Shown: in pieces, positions 5,639 through 37,855 of the stretch
Layout of the letters: each line of letters starts with the position of its first letter
How positions within the stretch are numbered: position 1 is the first letter of the stretch
Source of the DNA: Actinomycetota bacterium
GTDB taxonomy: Bacteria > Actinomycetota > Acidimicrobiia > Acidimicrobiales > Ilumatobacteraceae
Reading direction: 5' to 3'
NCBI GenBank assembly: GCA_017856115.1
Contig: JAFMFM010000005.1
Span: 1-54,784, forward strand
DNA length: 54,784 nucleotides
Position numbers and translations under genes: made by a program
The notes under the pieces: model-generated
Databases searched by the model: none
The model's input: the letters and a program-made list of their open reading frames with translations, nothing else
Told to the model about the DNA's origin: nothing

Positions 5639-6310
5639 TCAGATTACCTCAGGGCTACCGGTGGCTGACGGACGCTCTCCGAAGAGAGCCGACCCCACCC
5701 TCACCATGGTGGAACCTTCCTCGAGGGCGATCTCCACATCGCCCGACATCCCCATCGAGCAACCGATCACGCCGACGGCATCGGCCAACCGACGGACCAT
5801 CGCGAATGCATCTCGAGTTCGTCGAGGATTCCCGTCCGTGGGTCCAACGGTCATGAGTCCATCCACGATGAGTCCTGCCCGCCGGGCCCGCTCGACCAAT
5901 CCGGACGCATGTTCGGGCTCACAACCACCCTTGTCGGCTTCCGATGTGGCATTGACCTGTATGTAGACGTGTGCTCCGGGACTGCGCTTGGCGAGCTCGT
6001 CCACGATGGACTCGCGATCGACGCTCTGCCACACGGTGACCACCCCGACCAACGAACGCACCTTGTTGGACTGCAATCGTCCGATGAAGTGGACCGGCGG
6101 ATGGTCCGTTCCCACCGCGGCAATCTTGGCGGTCACCTCCTGGGCATAGTTCTCCCCGATTGCGTCGCATCCAAGTCGGTGGGCCAACGCGACGACGTCG
6201 GCTCCGAATCCCTTCGTCACCGCGCAGATCGTGACCGGGCCACGCGTGGCCCCGGCGTTCACGACACGACGAAGCTCCGCCAGTCGGTCTGCAACCGCCG
6301 ACTCGTCCAA
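5639..6310 (-). CDS. yggS: YggS/PLPBP family pyridoxal-phosphate-binding protein
   Basis: PLPBP proteins hold pyridoxal 5'-phosphate and buffer its supply; they have no known enzyme activity. The 223-residue protein shows the PLP-lysine motif ICAVTKGF (Lys33), then AIGENYAQE, HFIGRLQSNK and a C-terminal CSMGMSGDVEIA block followed by VRVGSALFGER. The first usable codon after ftsZ is TTG at 6310, ten bases past the ftsZ stop. The gene normally sits between ftsZ and sepF in actinobacteria, as here, although the usual pgeF gene is absent. Confidence 0.92.
   Translation of the reverse strand: MDESAVADRLAELRRVVNAGATRGPVTICAVTKGFGADVVALAHRLGCDAIGENYAQEVTAKIAAVGTDHPPVHFIGRLQSNKVRSLVGVVTVWQSVDRESIVDELAKRSPGAHVYIQVNATSEADKGGCEPEHASGLVERARRAGLIVDGLMTVGPTDGNPRRTRDAFAMVRRLADAVGVIGCSMGMSGDVEIALEEGSTMVRVGSALFGERPSATGSPEVI
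5641..5646 (-). promoter_or_regulatory. Putative -10 element of sepF (leaderless)
   Basis: TAATCT on the minus strand ends 7 bases before the sepF ATG at 5633, which would place transcription start at or next to the A of ATG. It lies inside the 3' end of yggS. No convincing -35 is seen. Confidence 0.45.
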
Positions 6311-6320
6311 CGAACTGTGG

Positions 6321-7430
6321 TTACTTCAGAAAATCGGGCACGTCGAGATCGTCATCGTCGCCGTCGTCGGTTCCGAAGATTTCGCGTAGGCGCGAACTGC
6401 CCTTACCGGCTTCTGGACGCGCATCCCCCCGCGTCGACGTGGCGTCGACTCGATTTCCGATTCGACCGGCGCCGGCGTCCCAACGTTCGAAGCCGGAGGC
6501 GATGACCGTGACGCGAACCTCGTCGCCCAGGTCGTCGTCGATCACGGTTCCGAGGATGATGTTGGCGTCCTGGTGGGCCACGCGTTGCACCGTCTCTGCA
6601 GCCTCGTTCAGTTCGAAAAGGCTCATGTCCGACGGACCAGCGACGTTCAGCAGAATTCCGCGTGCACCTTCGATGGCCGCCTCGAGCATCGGCGACGTGA
6701 TTGCCGCGATCGCCGCGTTCGCTGCTCGCTTGTCGCCGCTGGCGACACCGATACCCATCAACGACGATCCCGCGTTCGCGAGGATGGTTTTCACGTCGGC
6801 AAAGTCGGTGTTGATGAGACCCGGTGTGGTGATGATGCCGGTGATTCCCGAAACACCCTGCATGAGTACTTCGTCGGCCTTCTTGAATGCATCCAGCAGC
6901 GTGGTCTTGTCGGTGGCGATCGACAGCAGCTTCTCGTTCGGAATCACGATCAGCGTGTCCACTTTCTCCTTCAACTTGGCGATTCCCTGGTCGGCCTGCA
7001 CCGAACGGCGACGCCCTTCGAAACTGAATGGTCGCGTCACGATGCCGATCGTGAGTGCTCCTTCGGCCTTGGCGATTTCGGCCACCACCGGAGCGGCTCC
7101 GGTACCGGTGCCGCCGCCTTCACCGGCCGTGATGAACACCATGTCGGCACCGGCGAGATGTTCTTGAATCTCGTCGCGGTGGGCTTCGGCGGCTTCGCGA
7201 CCGATTTCCGGGTCGCTCCCTGCGCCGAGACCTCGAGTGAGTTCCCGACCGATATCGATCTTGTAACTCGCGTCGCTCATGATGAGCGCTTGCGCATCGG
7301 TGTTGATGGCGACGAAATCGACTCCTCGCAGTCCGGCATCGATCATTCGATTGACGGCATTCACTCCTCCGCCGCCGATACCCACGACCTTGATGACCGC
7401 GATCGGCGTGTTTTGCGAGTTGCTCGGCAT
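6321..7430 (-). CDS. ftsZ: Cell division GTPase FtsZ
   Basis: FtsZ is the tubulin-like GTPase that forms the cytokinetic ring. The 369-residue protein has the signature loop GGGTGTG at residues 105-111, the N-terminal [15 protein letters not shown] nucleotide site, and a C-terminal peptide [10 protein letters not shown] of the type that contacts SepF. I chose the ATG at 7430 because GGGTGAG lies 8 bases upstream; a further in-frame ATG upstream would swallow the leader hairpin. The gene has its own 50-base leader after the murB-ftsQ stop. Confidence 0.98.
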
Positions 7431-7448: not shown

Positions 7449-7467
7449 GTTGAGCATGAGGCTCAAC
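7449..7467 (-). other. Leader hairpin just upstream of the ftsZ ribosome site
   Basis: GTTGAGC and GCTCAAC form a perfect 7-bp stem with a 5-base loop. On the minus-strand mRNA it ends one or two bases before the GGGGGTGAG ribosome site of ftsZ. There is no following T run, so it is not a normal terminator. It could tune ftsZ translation or protect the 5' end. Confidence 0.5.
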
Positions 7468-7480
7468 CTCTACCGAAGGC

Positions 7481-7486
7481 ACACTA
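7481..7486 (-). promoter_or_regulatory. Putative -10 element of ftsZ overlapping the murB-ftsQ stop codon
   Basis: TAGTGT on the minus strand begins with the TAG stop of murB-ftsQ (7486-7484). A weak -35 TGGACA lies about 19 bases upstream. A start near 7474 would give a leader of about 44 bases containing the hairpin and the ribosome site. Confidence 0.4.
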
Positions 7487-9661
7487 GTCGTTTTTCACCA
7501 CTGGCTGTCCAGCCGATACATCGATGCCGGTGATGAAGTCGACGTTCTGCTGACTGAGCACGGTCAGCACGCTGATGAGCTTGTTCCGGATGTCCGTCGG
7601 GGCTCCGAGGGTCACCTCGGTGCCGGATTTCAGCGTGAACCCGAGCGACTCGGGTCCACTCACCGTGACGTGCTTGACCCGCGGTGCGAGTGATTCTGGC
7701 AGCGAAACCGCCAGTTGTGCGGCCGCCTGATACACCAACGAAGGCACGGTTCCCGGGGGCAAATTCGGCCCCACACCCTCGATCTTCATGAACTGAGTTG
7801 GCTGCCCGTCCAACACCGCCAGAACGCGACCTTCGAAGTCGAGTACGCGGGCCCGATTGTCCACACCAACGAACCAGGCGACCGCGACTCGCTCGTCGAC
7901 CTCGATCGTGACACGGTTCGGCAGGTACCACGACAATCGCGCTCGAGCCACCCACGGGTCGCCCTCGAGTCGCCGTTGCGCGCCGTCCAAGTCGGCGGTG
8001 AACACGCTCGCCCCACGCAATGAGTCGGTCACGCTCTCCAACAACGTCGGATCGGCGTACGTCACGCCGGTTACCTCGATTCGACGGACGCCGAACAGTG
8101 GCGAGGCGAGCACCACCAGCGTAAGCGCGAAGACGCCGATGAGCATGCCAAAACCGGCGAGTGGCGAGATGCGTCGGGGTACGAGCCGCCTCCACCATCC
8201 ACGTCGGCCGATTCGTTCGTCGACGATGACATCCGCCAGCGTCGTGGCACCCAGCGATGCGGATGGATCGGCATACGGGCTGGTCGGATCCAGGGTCAGT
8301 GACGCCGACCCTTCGGTGCGCTCATGTGGCAACAGATGATCGGAGTCGTCGATCACCACCGGAACCCCGGCTGCAGCATCCTGGGCGGTGCGCAACTGTG
8401 CGGCCGTGGAGATATCGACCACCTCGGCGACGGGTGTGTCGGCACCCGCGTGGTCGTCTTGCAATCCGCGCGACGACCCGTCGCTCGGTGTGGCGTCCGA
8501 TCGGGACGCCGCACCCGGCGCGCCGAAGAGTTCCTCCAATTCGGCCACGGCCTCCGGTGGGAGTGGTGGCGCAATCGTGACCGCACCGAGCGTGTCGTCG
8601 GGTGCGAGTGGGCCGAACTTGTCATCCAACTTGGTCGGCGTGCGGGCGGATACGTCGGTGGCGTCGTACTCCCCTCCTACTTGTGCTCCTGCATCACGTG
8701 CGACATCCGGATCGAATCCGACGAGTCGAACTTCGCTGTGCAGGTCGATTCCCAATTCGTCGTAAACGCGTGAACGCACGTGCGCCATGAGCTCGGCAAC
8801 GTCGTGCGCACTCCCGTCGGGATCGCACTGGATGAAGTTCGCGTGCTTCTCCGACACCTCGGCGCTACCGATACGCAGTCCACGCAACCCCAGGCGATCG
8901 ATGATGGCACCCGCCGATCCACCGTCGGGTTCCGGATTCACGAACACCGAACCAGCGTTGTGTCCACCGGGCTGCCGCTCACGTCGCCAGCGCACGATCT
9001 CGGAGATCTCCTTCTCGCTGGCCGTCTGATCCCCCCAACTCAATGCGAACGATGCCGAGAGCACCACGTGATGCGCACGCACGTCGCTGCCGCGGAATCG
9101 CAGGCCGAGATCATCGGCCTTCACGTTTGCCACGATGCCTTTTGCCAAGTGGAACACCTTCACGCTCTCCACACTGGACGCGATATCGGAGCCATGACCA
9201 CCGGCGTTCATTCGCACGGCACCGCCCACCGAACCGGGTACCCCGACTCCCCACTCGAATCCCGTCAAGCCCCGAGCCGCACTCTGGCGGGCAAGAACGG
9301 GAAGTGCCACCGCTCCCCCTGCCACCACTCGCGGGACTGCCGGTCGCTCCGGCCACGTGATGTCCTCGGCGAATTCCCCGAGCATCACGACGAGGCCATC
9401 GAAACCCTCGTCGGCGATCAGCAGGTTGCTTCCTCGTCCGATGACGAGCAGTGGCACTCTTTGCTCGCGCAGGGCATTGCTGACAGCGTGCAAATCGTCG
9501 ATCGAACGCGCCTTCAAGAACAAGCGGGCCGGTCCACCCACCTTGTACGTGGTGAACTGGGCCAACGAAACGTCCCGCCGAACCCGCGGCCCGAGCAGGA
9601 TGCCGAGCCGATCGAGCGCCCGCCGCTGGCGGGCCACGACGTCCGTGTCGTCAGTTGGCAC
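7484..9661 (-). CDS. MurB-FtsQ fusion: UDP-N-acetylenolpyruvoylglucosamine reductase joined to the division protein FtsQ
   Basis: One unbroken 725-codon frame encodes two dcw proteins. Residues 1 to ~320 are MurB, the flavoenzyme that makes UDP-MurNAc: FAD site IGRGSNLLIADEGF (74-87), PGSVGGAVRMNAGG (142-155), catalytic Ser238 in NAGSVFVNP and Glu310 near EVRLVGF. Residues ~320-498 form an acidic, low-complexity linker. Residues ~499-523 are one membrane helix, followed by the FtsQ POTRA domain (FGVRRIEVTGVTYADP to about 592) and the beta domain to the C-terminus. The topology fits: MurB in the cytosol, FtsQ outside. GTG start at 9661 overlaps murC by 11 bases. A normal arrangement would be two adjacent genes. 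Confidence 0.93.
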   Translation of the reverse strand: MPTDDTDVVARQRRALDRLGILLGPRVRRDVSLAQFTTYKVGGPARLFLKARSIDDLHAVSNALREQRVPLLVIGRGSNLLIADEGFDGLVVMLGEFAEDITWPERPAVPRVVAGGAVALPVLARQSAARGLTGFEWGVGVPGSVGGAVRMNAGGHGSDIASSVESVKVFHLAKGIVANVKADDLGLRFRGSDVRAHHVVLSASFALSWGDQTASEKEISEIVRWRRERQPGGHNAGSVFVNPEPDGGSAGAIIDRLGLRGLRIGSAEVSEKHANFIQCDPDGSAHDVAELMAHVRSRVYDELGIDLHSEVRLVGFDPDVARDAGAQVGGEYDATDVSARTPTKLDDKFGPLAPDDTLGAVTIAPPLPPEAVAELEELFGAPGAASRSDATPSDGSSRGLQDDHAGADTPVAEVVDISTAAQLRTAQDAAAGVPVVIDDSDHLLPHERTEGSASLTLDPTSPYADPSASLGATTLADVIVDERIGRRGWWRRLVPRRISPLAGFGMLIGVFALTLVVLASPLFGVRRIEVTGVTYADPTLLESVTDSLRGASVFTADLDGAQRRLEGDPWVARARLSWYLPNRVTIEVDERVAVAWFVGVDNRARVLDFEGRVLAVLDGQPTQFMKIEGVGPNLPPGTVPSLVYQAAAQLAVSLPESLAPRVKHVTVSGPESLGFTLKSGTEVTLGAPTDIRNKLISVLTVLSQQNVDFITGIDVSAGQPVVKND

Positions 9662-34132: not shown

Positions 34133-35347
34133 CTAGAGCTTCGGTAGACCGTGGTCGAGATTGCGAACGGCTTGGTGAATGCGCTGCTCGTTCTCGATCA
34201 GCGCAAAACGCACAAAGCCCTCGCCGCCCGGTCCAAATCCGGAACCCGGTGACAGCGCCACGTTGCACTCCGTCACGAGGTGCGAACAGAACTCCACCGA
34301 ATTCATTTCGCGGTATGCCTCGGGAATCGGAGCCCAAACGAACATCGAGCCGCGAGGTGACGGAATCGACCAGCCGATACGTTCGAGGCCGTCGATCAAG
34401 GCGTCTCGACGAGATTGATACGTCTTGCATACCTCCACGGGAAAGTCCTGCGCTTCGTTCAATGTGACGGTCGCCGCAATCTGGATCGGCTGGAACGTTC
34501 CGTAGTCGAGGTACGACTTCAACTTCACGAGGGCCTGTACCACCTCGGTGTTCCCCGCGAGGAATGCACAGCGCCAGCCCGCCATCGAATACCCCTTGGT
34601 CATCGAATACAGCTCCACGGCACACTCCATCGCTCCGTCGGCTTGGAGGATCGACGGCGGCTCGTACCCGTTGAAGCCCATGTCGGCATAGGCGAAGTCG
34701 TGCACGACGATCATCTCCCGCTCGCGACAAAAGTCCACAACGCGCTGCATGAAGGACAGATCCACGGTGGCACCCGTGGGATTATGGGGAAACGAGATCA
34801 CCAGCACGCGCGGCTTCGGCCAGCCCACCTCCCAGGCTTTGTGCAGGGCGTCGAAGAACTCGTCTTGATATTCGGCGTCGACATCCGTAGGAGAAAGCAG
34901 CCGTCGTTGGCTACGCATGGGGATTTGTCGTAGATCGGCCCCGGCGAACAGTGGACCGAAGATGTGGATCGGGTAACTCGGACTCGGAACGATTGCTGCG
35001 TCCCCTGACTCGAGCAGCACCCACATCAGGTGACTGAATCCTTCCTTCGAGCCGATCGTATTGGTGATCTGTAGGTCGGGATCGAGTGTCACCCCGAATT
35101 TGCGCTGGTACATCCCCGCCACGGCCTCACGGAGTTTGGGCAAGCCACGCGACAGCGAGTACCGGTGGTTCTTCGGATTGTGCGCCGCCTCCGCCAACTT
35201 CTCCACTGCGATGTCGGGCGATGGAATGTCGGGGTTCCCGAAACCGAGGTCGATGACGTCGTCGCCATCGCGACGAGCAGTGATCTTCAGATTGTTGATG
35301 ATGGTGAACACATACGGAGGCAGGTTGCTTATGCGACGAAAGTCCAC
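34133..35347 (-). CDS. PLP-dependent aminotransferase, AlaC-like (alanine transaminase group)
   Basis: A 404-residue class I/II aminotransferase that moves an amino group between alanine or a related amino acid and a 2-oxoacid. The features are LGFGNPDIPSP, SLSRGLPKLREAVAGMY, ISFPHNPTGATVD, VVHDFAYADMGFNG and the PLP lysine in YSMTKGYSMAGWR; SPGSGFGPGGEGFVRFAL is at the C-terminus. This set is typical of AlaC/YfdZ-type glutamate-pyruvate aminotransferases. GTG start with a TAGGCT element 6 bases upstream. Confidence 0.92.
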   Translation of the reverse strand: MDFRRISNLPPYVFTIINNLKITARRDGDDVIDLGFGNPDIPSPDIAVEKLAEAAHNPKNHRYSLSRGLPKLREAVAGMYQRKFGVTLDPDLQITNTIGSKEGFSHLMWVLLESGDAAIVPSPSYPIHIFGPLFAGADLRQIPMRSQRRLLSPTDVDAEYQDEFFDALHKAWEVGWPKPRVLVISFPHNPTGATVDLSFMQRVVDFCREREMIVVHDFAYADMGFNGYEPPSILQADGAMECAVELYSMTKGYSMAGWRCAFLAGNTEVVQALVKLKSYLDYGTFQPIQIAATVTLNEAQDFPVEVCKTYQSRRDALIDGLERIGWSIPSPRGSMFVWAPIPEAYREMNSVEFCSHLVTECNVALSPGSGFGPGGEGFVRFALIENEQRIHQAVRNLDHGLPKL

Positions 35348-35353
35348 GACGCA

Positions 35354-35359
35354 AGCCTA
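35354..35359 (-). promoter_or_regulatory. Putative -10 element of the aminotransferase gene, overlapping the glucokinase stop
   Basis: TAGGCT ends 6 bases before the GTG at 35347. Its first three bases are the TAG stop of the upstream glucokinase gene. Confidence 0.5.
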
Positions 35360-36247
35360 AGACGCGACGGTGAAGCGTGGCAGCAAGGCGGCACCGATCG
35401 CTCCGGCATGCTCACCCAACTGCGCAACCCGAAGATCGGGATGTTGTCGCTGCTCGGGCGAGTACAGGGTTTCGACGAACCAGCGCTTCACCATCGGCAT
35501 GATCACGTCTGCCGCCTCGGATACTCCCCCTCCAATGACGATGACATCGGGGTCACTCACGTTGGTGAGGTTCGAAAGGCCGATCGCCACCCACCGCGAG
35601 TAGGCCTCCAGCACCGTTATCGCATCGGCGTCACCGCGACGCGACCGCTCGATCACGCTCTCTCCCGGTTCACCGCTCGCCAACATGCCGAGGCCGCGCC
35701 CGGAGGCGTACACCTCCCAGCAACCCTTTCGTCCGCACGTGCAGCGAGGCCCATCGGGGTTCACCACCGTATGTCCGATCTCCCCTGCGAAACCGTTGAC
35801 ACCGCGCTGCACGACCCCGTTCAGCACGTGCCCACCGCCAATTCCGGTGCCGAGCGTGACCATCCACATATTGCGTGCGCCGCGACCGGCGCCGTAGCGC
35901 CACTCGGCGAGCGCGGCGGCATTGCCGTCGTTGTCGACGTGGATGGGACGGCCGAGTCGCTTCGAAAGATCGGGTCCGACCGCGACGTCCACCGAACCGG
36001 GGATGTTCGGTGACGCCCTCATGACGCCGCTCAAGGTGATGAGTCCGGGAACCCCCACCGACAACGTCTCCACTTCGCCGAGCTCGGCGGCCAACACGGC
36101 GAGTGCGTCGACCAACTCGGAAGCGTGTGGTGTTGGGTACCGCACCTCGCGGAGAATGTCGTGCTCGCTACCGATGTCCGAATCGACATCAATTACGACG
36201 CCGAGACACTTGGTGCCGCCGACGTCGATTCCCGCAGCGAGGGTCAC
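35357..36247 (-). CDS. ROK family glucokinase
   Basis: A 296-residue ROK kinase, probably phosphorylating glucose with ATP. It shows the phosphate loop AAGIDVGGTKCLGVV, HVDNDGNAAALAEWRYGAGRG (catalytic Asp), LGTGIGGGHVLNG, GFAGEIGHTVV and the zinc motif CTCGRKGCWEVYASG. This is closer to the actinobacterial glucokinase GlkA than the ROK protein at 26121. The ATG overlaps the stop of the SRPBCC gene by four bases. Confidence 0.9.
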   Translation of the reverse strand: MTLAAGIDVGGTKCLGVVIDVDSDIGSEHDILREVRYPTPHASELVDALAVLAAELGEVETLSVGVPGLITLSGVMRASPNIPGSVDVAVGPDLSKRLGRPIHVDNDGNAAALAEWRYGAGRGARNMWMVTLGTGIGGGHVLNGVVQRGVNGFAGEIGHTVVNPDGPRCTCGRKGCWEVYASGRGLGMLASGEPGESVIERSRRGDADAITVLEAYSRWVAIGLSNLTNVSDPDVIVIGGGVSEAADVIMPMVKRWFVETLYSPEQRQHPDLRVAQLGEHAGAIGAALLPRFTVAS

Positions 36248-36675
36248 GACTCCGCGCGAGTCTTCAATTCTTTCAAGGTGTGCAAGATGCGCACCTCTGC
36301 GCGACGCTTCACGAAACCTGGGAGGGGAATGATCAACTCAATCTTGAGCGAGTAGGTGATGTCGGTTCCTCCGTCCGCCGCAGCGAACGTGTACGCACCG
36401 TCGATCGCCCTCATGATGTCGCCCTCGACCAGCGACCAGGAGATTCGCTCCGGTGCTTGGGAGTAGTCGTATGACAAGGTGTAGTGGGTGCTACGCCCGA
36501 GGGCGCTTGCGCGATATTCCACCTTGGTCGCGCGTCCACTCGGATCACGCTCGAGGATGTTGGCCTCTTTCACGTCGCGCGCCCACTCCGGGTACCGTTC
36601 GAAGTCCACCGCAACGTCGAAGCAACGGGAGGGACTCGCGGCGACGTGTTCCGTTTCGGTCGCCTGGTCGATCAC
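36244..36675 (-). CDS. SRPBCC (START-like, polyketide cyclase/dehydrase) family protein
   Basis: A 143-residue protein with the helix-grip fold pattern: VAASPSRCFDVAVDFERYPEWARDVKEA near the N-terminus (core YPEWA), a central Tyr-rich strand region and the C-terminal helix LPGFVKRRAEVRILHTLKELK. Such proteins bind hydrophobic ligands; the ligand is unknown. The GTG at 36675 is supported by a TAGCCT element 7 bases upstream. It is coupled to the glucokinase gene downstream, and similar genes commonly accompany PimB-like glycosyltransferases in actinobacteria, as here. Confidence 0.85.
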   Translation of the reverse strand: MIDQATETEHVAASPSRCFDVAVDFERYPEWARDVKEANILERDPSGRATKVEYRASALGRSTHYTLSYDYSQAPERISWSLVEGDIMRAIDGAYTFAAADGGTDITYSLKIELIIPLPGFVKRRAEVRILHTLKELKTRAES

Positions 36676-36682
36676 GCAGGCA

Positions 36683-36688
36683 AGGCTA
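36683..36688 (-). promoter_or_regulatory. Putative -10 element of the SRPBCC gene, overlapping the glycosyltransferase stop
   Basis: TAGCCT ends 7 bases before the GTG at 36675. Its first three bases are the TAG stop of the glycosyltransferase gene. Confidence 0.5.
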
Positions 36689-37855
36689 GTTGGTCGTACG
36701 GAGAGCATTCGCGAGGCGGGCCGCCAGCACCGAGTAATCGAACTCGGCAACTGCTCGGGCTCGGGCAGCCATACCCATCCTCGTTCGCACGTTCGCGTCC
36801 TTCAGCAAAAAGGACAACCGTTCGGCGACGTCGTCGACACTCCCGGGGTTGCTCACCACGTAGCCGGTGACGCCATCGACGACGGCGTCGGCTGCGCCCC
36901 CGCTGTCGCCGGCAATCTGGGGCACGGCACATGCCGCAGCCTCGGCGAACACGATCCCGAAGCCCTCTTGCTCGAGGCCCGCCCACCGATTACGACACAA
37001 CATGAGGAATGCATCCGCACAGCCGTACAGCGCTGGAAGGTCGGCGTCCGAAACTCGGCCCAGCAGTCGCACCGGTGCGTCCAGCTCTTTGATCAGCGCC
37101 TGGAGTCGTGCGTGCTCGCGCCCCGTTCCACCGATCAGCATCGTGATTTCCGCAAGTCCGCTCGCGTCACCGGAATCTCGAGCAGCTGACGCCAGCCGGG
37201 CAACGGCACGGATGGCAACATCGAAGCCCTTGCGGGGCACCAGGCGACTGACCCCCACCACCAGCGGCGCGTATGACGACACCCCGAATCGTTCGCGCGC
37301 CGCCCGTCGAGTTGGCTCATCGAGTGGAACGAACCGCTCGGTGTCGACACCGGGTGGAATCTGCACGATCTCGGGCCCGTCGGGCCCACGTCGCCGCGTG
37401 CGTTCCATCGCCCGGATCGCCTCGGCCGTCGGATACCGGCCCGATGCGAGTACCTGGGAGGCTCCATTCAGCACGTGTGCGAGTACCTGACGTGAAGCCG
37501 GTAGTCGTCCCGGCACCGAGATCTCTGCTCCATGCACCATCACGCTGTACGGAAGCGAGAGCGAACGCCCGACGAGCCCCAGCGGTAATGCCGGGTCGAT
37601 CACCACGTGCTCGGCGCCGAATTCCGCGGCCAACCGCTCTATTCGACGAACCATCAGCGGGTGAGGAAGCAACACCGGCTCGCGGATCCGCTCGATGCGA
37701 AATGGTTGCCGAGCATCGAAGTCCCGCGCATCGGGGTGCGGGCTGGTGAGTACGGCAAACGACGAGGGGTCGAGTCTTCGCCACAACTCCCACAACATGT
37801 TCTGGATACCGCCGACCTTCGGCGGAAAGTCGTTCGTCACCAATAGGTGCTTCAT
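36686..37855 (-). CDS. GT4 glycosyltransferase, PimB-like mannosyltransferase
   Basis: A 389-residue GT-B fold enzyme. It begins MKHLLVTNDFPPKVGGIQNML, the classic start of PimB'/MgtA-type GT4 enzymes (core FPPKVGGIQ), has VMVHGAEISVPGRLP, GVSRLVPRKGFDVAIRA and the donor-binding EEGFGIVFAEAAACAVP with the EX7E pair. By family it would use GDP-mannose to mannosylate phosphatidylinositol mannosides or a glycolipid; the acceptor is inference. The ATG at 37855 overlaps the queG stop (ATGA). Confidence 0.85.
   Translation of the reverse strand: MKHLLVTNDFPPKVGGIQNMLWELWRRLDPSSFAVLTSPHPDARDFDARQPFRIERIREPVLLPHPLMVRRIERLAAEFGAEHVVIDPALPLGLVGRSLSLPYSVMVHGAEISVPGRLPASRQVLAHVLNGASQVLASGRYPTAEAIRAMERTRRRGPDGPEIVQIPPGVDTERFVPLDEPTRRAARERFGVSSYAPLVVGVSRLVPRKGFDVAIRAVARLASAARDSGDASGLAEITMLIGGTGREHARLQALIKELDAPVRLLGRVSDADLPALYGCADAFLMLCRNRWAGLEQEGFGIVFAEAAACAVPQIAGDSGGAADAVVDGVTGYVVSNPGSVDDVAERLSFLLKDANVRTRMGMAARARAVAEFDYSVLAARLANALRTTN

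Follow-up and report, generated by a model that had tools for sequence, protein, structure and literature searches.

TAG stop codons within predicted TANNNT −10 elements at gene junctions of an Ilumatobacteraceae genome

Introduction

Can the stop codon of one gene also be the first half of the −10 element of the next and, if so, is the overlap selected or does it follow from the promoter motif itself? The question is raised by a stretch of 54,784 nucleotides (the window) from an Ilumatobacteraceae genome, part of a 1.67-Mb assembly of 77 contigs. An earlier reading made from these letters alone (the sequence-only reading) placed at three junctions a TAGNNT hexamer opening with the TAG stop of the upstream gene, and interpreted these hexamers as −10 elements. 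All three hexamers are present in the sequence, each beginning with the upstream stop (Table 1), and the minus strand of the window contains 10 TAGNNT in total.

Related promoters are known from other actinobacteria. Mycobacterial SigA prefers a TANNNT −10, and 24% of mycobacterial transcripts are leaderless (Martini et al. 2019, PMC6448022); these promoters resemble the boxes described here in their TANNNT −10 but belong to a different class of bacteria from the Ilumatobacteraceae genome, and the part of that account consulted mentions no box overlapping an upstream stop. In Corynebacterium glutamicum, about one third of mRNAs are leaderless, with initiation at AUG or GUG (PMC3890552), as predicted here, and stop/−10 sharing is likewise not described in the sections consulted. 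The StartLink paper, citing GeneMarkS-2, reports many leaderless genes in Actinobacteria and suggests that promoter patterns could aid start prediction (PMC9581028); the portion consulted deals with short gaps and with conserved overlaps of 4 and 1 bases between genes, and describes no promoter inside a stop. Sharing of this kind appeared in none of the titles or abstract openings of the papers listed by the literature searches, and it may already have been published elsewhere. What is described here is a variant within a known class of promoter and not a new system.

Materials and Methods

The sample of the source genome comprised 580,909 bases, in which 508 genes were called from coding potential alone, with no use of upstream motifs. 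The gene caller was simple and home-made, and some starts were misplaced, including that of the aminotransferase itself. In scoring sharing, all in-frame starts lying no more than 75 bases inside the predicted one were accepted, and positions +12 to +14 were counted from the first base of the stop. A set of 71 loci from one protein search (L041–L111) repeats the aminotransferase junction and was excluded from the sharing count. Retention was counted at seven junctions, including ftsQ-ftsZ; the near-identical genome G009 was dropped and one orthologue was not aligned to its end.

Results and Discussion

Candidate −10 elements in the window

Table 1. Positions in the window of the genes, predicted −10 boxes and other features discussed.
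Feature	Position	Strand	Remarks
Glucokinase/aminotransferase box TAGGCT	35359-35354	minus	Glucokinase stop TAG (35359-35357) is the first half of the predicted −10
Aminotransferase class I/II gene	34133..35347	minus	GTG 35347, predicted leaderless; start backed by homologues; Pfam
ROK-family kinase (glucokinase)	35357..36247	minus	Terminates in the shared TAG; Pfam ROK family
Glycosyltransferase/SRPBCC box TAGCCT	36688-36683	minus	Stop TAG (36688-36686) is the first half of the predicted −10
SRPBCC / polyketide-cyclase-like gene	36244..36675	minus	GTG 36675, predicted leaderless; Pfam
Glycosyltransferase group 1 gene	36686..37855 (predicted start)	minus	Terminates in the shared TAG; Pfam
murB-ftsQ/ftsZ box TAGTGT	7486-7481	minus	murB-ftsQ stop TAG (7486-7484) is the first half of the candidate −10
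ftsZ	6321..7430	minus	ATG 7430; GGGGGT Shine-Dalgarno-like stretch before the start
murB-ftsQ fused reading frame	7484..9661	minus	Terminates in the shared TAG; name taken from the sequence-only reading
Inverted repeat GTTGAGC-CTCAT-GCTCAAC	7449..7467	minus	ftsZ leader, by eye
TAATCT box	5646-5641	minus	Final T opens the upstream TGA stop (5641-5639); next ATG 5633

Two geometries are represented. TAGGCT is separated by 6 bases from the GTG of the aminotransferase gene, and TAGCCT by 7 bases from that of the SRPBCC gene, with stop-to-start gaps of 9 and 10 bases, respectively. At the third junction, TAGTGT lies 50 bases before the ATG (stop-to-start gap 53 bases) of a gene that we take to be ftsZ, the name used in the sequence-only reading. 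A TANNNT box 6–8 bases before the start, the spacing of leaderless sigma-A promoters and the one originally proposed for TAGNNT, is therefore present at the aminotransferase and SRPBCC genes and absent at ftsZ. The first two sites have a leaderless geometry and the ftsZ site a leadered one.

TANNNT boxes in genome samples

In the sample of the source genome, 101 of 496 predicted starts were preceded by TANNNT at a spacer of 6–9 bases. Spacer 6 accounts for 42 of these boxes and spacer 7 for 29, compared with a background mean of 1.43 per position at distances of 17–39 bases. Starts with the box rarely carry a Shine-Dalgarno tetramer (4/101, versus 98 of the 395 starts without the box), and none of the 17 starts at sharing junctions has one, the two leaderless-type sites of the window included. 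TANNNT also occurs 8–17 bases upstream of 11 of 17 tRNA genes (background 0.08 per 10-base bin; 20 tRNA genes were found in the samples of the source genome and of a second species of the genus, G003, and three that follow another tRNA gene were set aside), indicating that the box is not a translation signal. The identical script applied to Escherichia coli detected TANNNT at spacer 6–9 before none of 73 starts. No −35 consensus was evident by eye in the 92 aligned regions upstream of boxes clear of stops; the −35 element is often weak in Actinobacteria. The third base of these 92 boxes was G (44), C (35), T (8) or A (5), and this predominance of G and C fits an overlap with TAG rather than TAA, whereas TGA cannot fit the box.

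The position of the boxes, their enrichment in the genome sample, their presence before tRNA genes and the scarcity of Shine-Dalgarno sequences, together with the conservation and the fit to a passive null described below, argue that the hexamers are very probably −10 elements of the TANNNT type recognized by the housekeeping sigma factor, with the stop shared passively. The interpretation of TAGNNT as a −10 element that prompted this work is thus supported by several lines of sequence comparison, strongly for the aminotransferase and SRPBCC junctions and fairly well for ftsZ, where the hexamer is probably a −10 preceding a leader. At leaderless-type junctions such as those of the aminotransferase and SRPBCC genes, the housekeeping sigma factor would open the DNA at TA(G/C)NNT, and transcription would start on or beside the start codon (GTG or ATG), yielding a leaderless mRNA on which the ribosome could start without a Shine-Dalgarno sequence. 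The downstream gene would then have its own promoter, the upstream half of which would lie inside the coding sequence of the preceding gene, and translation of that gene would terminate on the box. The ftsZ transcript from its box would instead carry a leader about 44 bases long.

Frequency of stop sharing

The 334 same-strand junctions of the sample end in TAG (99), TAA (55) or TGA (180). Both T at +6 and a start in frame at positions +12 to +14 were present at 17/99 TAG, 0/55 TAA and 4/180 TGA stops. For TAG stops, T at +6 and start distance were associated (counts of 17, 3, 8 and 71; Fisher p = 1.7e-10), and for TGA stops in the same sample they were not (p = 0.5). In G003, sharing was observed at 9/65 TAG and 2/50 TAA stops, with a weaker association among TAG stops (9, 8, 7 and 41; p = 0.0032), and five more distant actinobacterial genomes gave 6/86 TAG and 2/46 TAA when pooled (association p = 1e-4); one shared site was found in each of G030 and G082. 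The excluded aminotransferase loci, analyzed on their own, also displayed the association for TAG (10, 6, 2 and 31; p = 4.7e-5). The distance from the stop to the next −10 peaks exactly at zero, with 17/69 in the source genome (i.e., about one quarter of the exactly matching leaderless-type boxes at same-strand junctions use the upstream stop), 11/44 in G003 and 8/85 in the five pooled genomes, against means at neighbouring positions of 0.53, 0.53 and 0.30, respectively. The samples of the seven genomes contained 36 shared sites in total.

A coincidence in a compact genome, with no promoter function, would be compatible with the small number of sites first noticed and with nothing further. We give this explanation almost no credence and reject plain chance, given the junction tests in the source genome, in G003 and in the pooled genomes, the peak at offset zero and the negative control, in which none of 50 gene pairs in 100 kb of E. 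coli had a shared stop/−10. The pattern is well above chance overall.

Alternatively, the short distance between stop and start might reflect translational coupling or reinitiation on a polycistronic mRNA, the T at +6 being accidental. Gaps of 9 and 10 bases would suit such a process, and reinitiation across gaps of about this size is known in bacteria. However, the start distance is tied to T at +6 for TAG and not for TGA stops, TAGNNT persists where the stop lies elsewhere, and the box precedes tRNA genes, which makes this explanation highly unlikely. The excess of starts at +12 to +14 lies with TAG stops carrying T at +6, and translational coupling alone is rejected.

TAG is not commoner at same-strand gene ends (99/334) than at convergent ends (53/144), and sharing therefore does not increase TAG usage overall. 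TAG stops are frequent in the source genus and rare in the larger relative G030 (14/213).

Conservation of the boxes in relatives

Among 80 aminotransferase homologues from public records, 74 had TANNNT at spacer 6–9. Four of the other six carried TAGCGT or TAACGT 10–11 bases upstream, and in the remaining two the assigned start is off and a box is visible before the next ATG. The TA and the last T are constant, and the middle of the box varies (TAGCGT, TAGTTT, TAACGT, TAGGGT). In 32 of the 80 homologues, the TAG or TAA of the box terminates a frame that has been open for 150 codons or more, and is thus a candidate shared stop; at the other loci, the upstream gene ends further off or none is visible. 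The nearest public records are mostly metagenome assemblies of Ilumatobacteraceae, Acidimicrobiia and Actinomycetota, the best with 99% protein identity. Four loci titled Bifidobacterium breve, Acidobacteria, Ferrithrix and Spirochaetaceae (L040, L045, L103 and L111, respectively) encode aminotransferases 69–90% identical to that of the window, and these titles look like wrong labels on metagenome assemblies.

An SRPBCC match was present in 11 of 13 genomes of the genus, all 11 with TAGCCT or TAGTCT. The box coincides with the glycosyltransferase stop in four of them, and in the other seven the same glycosyltransferase (70–78% identity) stops with TGA 18–49 bases before the SRPBCC start. In a tree built from four proteins, the four sharing genomes group as one clade (support 98) and the lineages around it have free boxes, suggesting, most simply, that the SRPBCC promoter is older than the sharing and that the stop moved onto the box. 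Outside the genus, SRPBCC relatives have TAGAAC or CAGAAT-like sequences at the place of the box, which do not match TANNNT and are not counted here; in three loci from outside the genus (L185, L186 and L189), a TAG at −12 closes a long frame at SRPBCC.

A comparable case was found at another junction. Before uvrA, TAGNNT is kept in 9/9 readable loci of the genus, eight of them shared and one with the stop 26 bases further upstream. A methyltransferase junction (L131) counts against the interpretation: sharing was observed in 5 of 10 full-length loci of the genus, and the other five have no TAGNNT at that spacing, and one of them has a TANNNT (TACGAT). The retention of TAGNNT by relatives with the stop elsewhere backs the −10 interpretation. 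The genes downstream of shared stops include uvrB, uvrA, rapZ, GAPDH, an ANTAR regulator and methylmalonyl-CoA mutase. One locus, L128, has four shared TAG junctions within 8 kb, at positions 1798, 3853, 8624 and 9492 (coaE-uvrB, uvrB-uvrA, an unscanned gene-rapZ, and rapZ-GAPDH).

Selected or passive sharing

A box with mostly G or C at its third position often contains a stop triplet, and this would explain why the TAG of the stop is the TAG of the box: a frame entering the box in register must stop there, and both functions would then hold the TAG. Free boxes begin with TAG or TAA in 47–72% of cases, compared with a stop frequency of 2.0–2.7% per triplet in the gaps. A passive null in which the TAG of the −10 acts as a fixed stop triplet, and upstream frames are assumed to enter boxes as often as nearby positions, gave 42.7 expected shared sites, against the 36 observed (15.2 expected versus 17 seen in the source genome, 17.0 versus 11 in G003 and 10.4 versus 8 in the five pooled genomes). 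The inputs are rough (stops between −30 and −3 relative to the box, the gap stop frequency and the third bases of free boxes), and the comparison leaves room for a modest excess of sharing. The count lies within the passive expectation, and selection for sharing is therefore not needed; sharing occurs at about the rate that a fixed, stop-containing box yields by itself. The count of TAG stops within TAGNNT that the sequence-only reading called for thus exceeds by far the expectation from base composition but not that from the passive null. Its picture of a promoter squeezed into the gap, with termination and initiation sharing bases, holds for the shared TAG and needs no special selection, since a stop triplet is frequently part of TA[GC]NNT and any frame arriving in register is trapped by it.

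At orthologous stops located at the same gene end, TAG was retained in 21/22 cases for sharing and 20/34 for non-sharing junctions (p = 0.002, with related genomes treated as separate, although members of the genus are not independent). The single exception among the 22 is a TGA, and T at +6 was retained in 21/21 of the same-end sharing orthologues. Among the 36 orthologues of sharing junctions that were aligned, 14 had a shifted gene end.

That stop and −10 are locked exactly in phase, and that TAG is strongly retained at shared sites, might be taken as signs that the overlap was selected for coupling, with terminating ribosomes or the preceding polymerase occluding or releasing the next −10, such that upstream expression tunes the promoter. 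We consider this very unlikely: the number of shared sites is not above the passive expectation, relatives keep unshared boxes at SRPBCC, at uvrA and at many aminotransferase loci, and TAG retention follows from the two functions alone. The seven-genome comparison with the passive null gave no sign of selection for coupling, and an influence of ribosome or polymerase on the promoter is not required by the data. The related proposal that in leaderless-rich actinobacteria the stop and the next −10 form one dual-use element, in which sigma preference fixes the stop and ribosome termination tunes initiation of the next gene, appears improbable.

Under passive sharing of predicted −10 elements, promoters would fit into junctions of about 10 bases since in many cases the −10 in these bacteria already supplies a stop codon. 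Should the boxes function as predicted, distance alone would be insufficient for calling such gene pairs operons, a TAGNNT at a stop could be used by gene finders as a start signal, and replacing TAG by TGA, which leaves the upstream protein unaltered, should damage the next promoter, an expected cost with which the difference in TAG retention is consistent. The interest of these junctions lies in numbers indicating that a predicted promoter box also serves as a stop codon and determines which stop is used there.

The ftsZ junction

In other actinobacteria, ftsZ promoters lie between ftsQ and ftsZ. The junction described here resembles these in the proximity of a predicted ftsZ promoter to ftsQ and differs in that the candidate −10 begins with the ftsQ stop itself. 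TAGTGT is identical, and always the ftsQ stop, in 10/10 readable members of the genus, including the source genome; it was not seen before ftsZ in the upstream stretches examined from other genera. As neither the hexamer nor its sharing varies among the genus members examined, conservation at ftsZ cannot tell promoter from stop. A search of the ftsQ-ftsZ DNA against a plasmid collection gave no match. The inverted repeat in the ftsZ leader sits just past the expected transcript start and is not followed by a run of T. Judged by eye, most of the 10 genus members retain the repeat; in G010 and G011 its letters differ but can still pair, with G-T pairs included, and G012 has a shortened version.

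Other overlaps in the window

The SRPBCC stop overlaps the glucokinase start by four bases (36244-36247). The kinase may therefore be translationally coupled to SRPBCC, whereas its downstream neighbour, the aminotransferase gene, has its own predicted promoter. A second class of stop/box overlap (offset +5), in which the final T of the box opens the stop codon, was found four times in the sample of the source genome and twice in G003, and is rarer than offset 0. The window has an example at 5639-5646 of the minus strand, TAATCTGA, with identical letters in the genus relatives L201 and L213.
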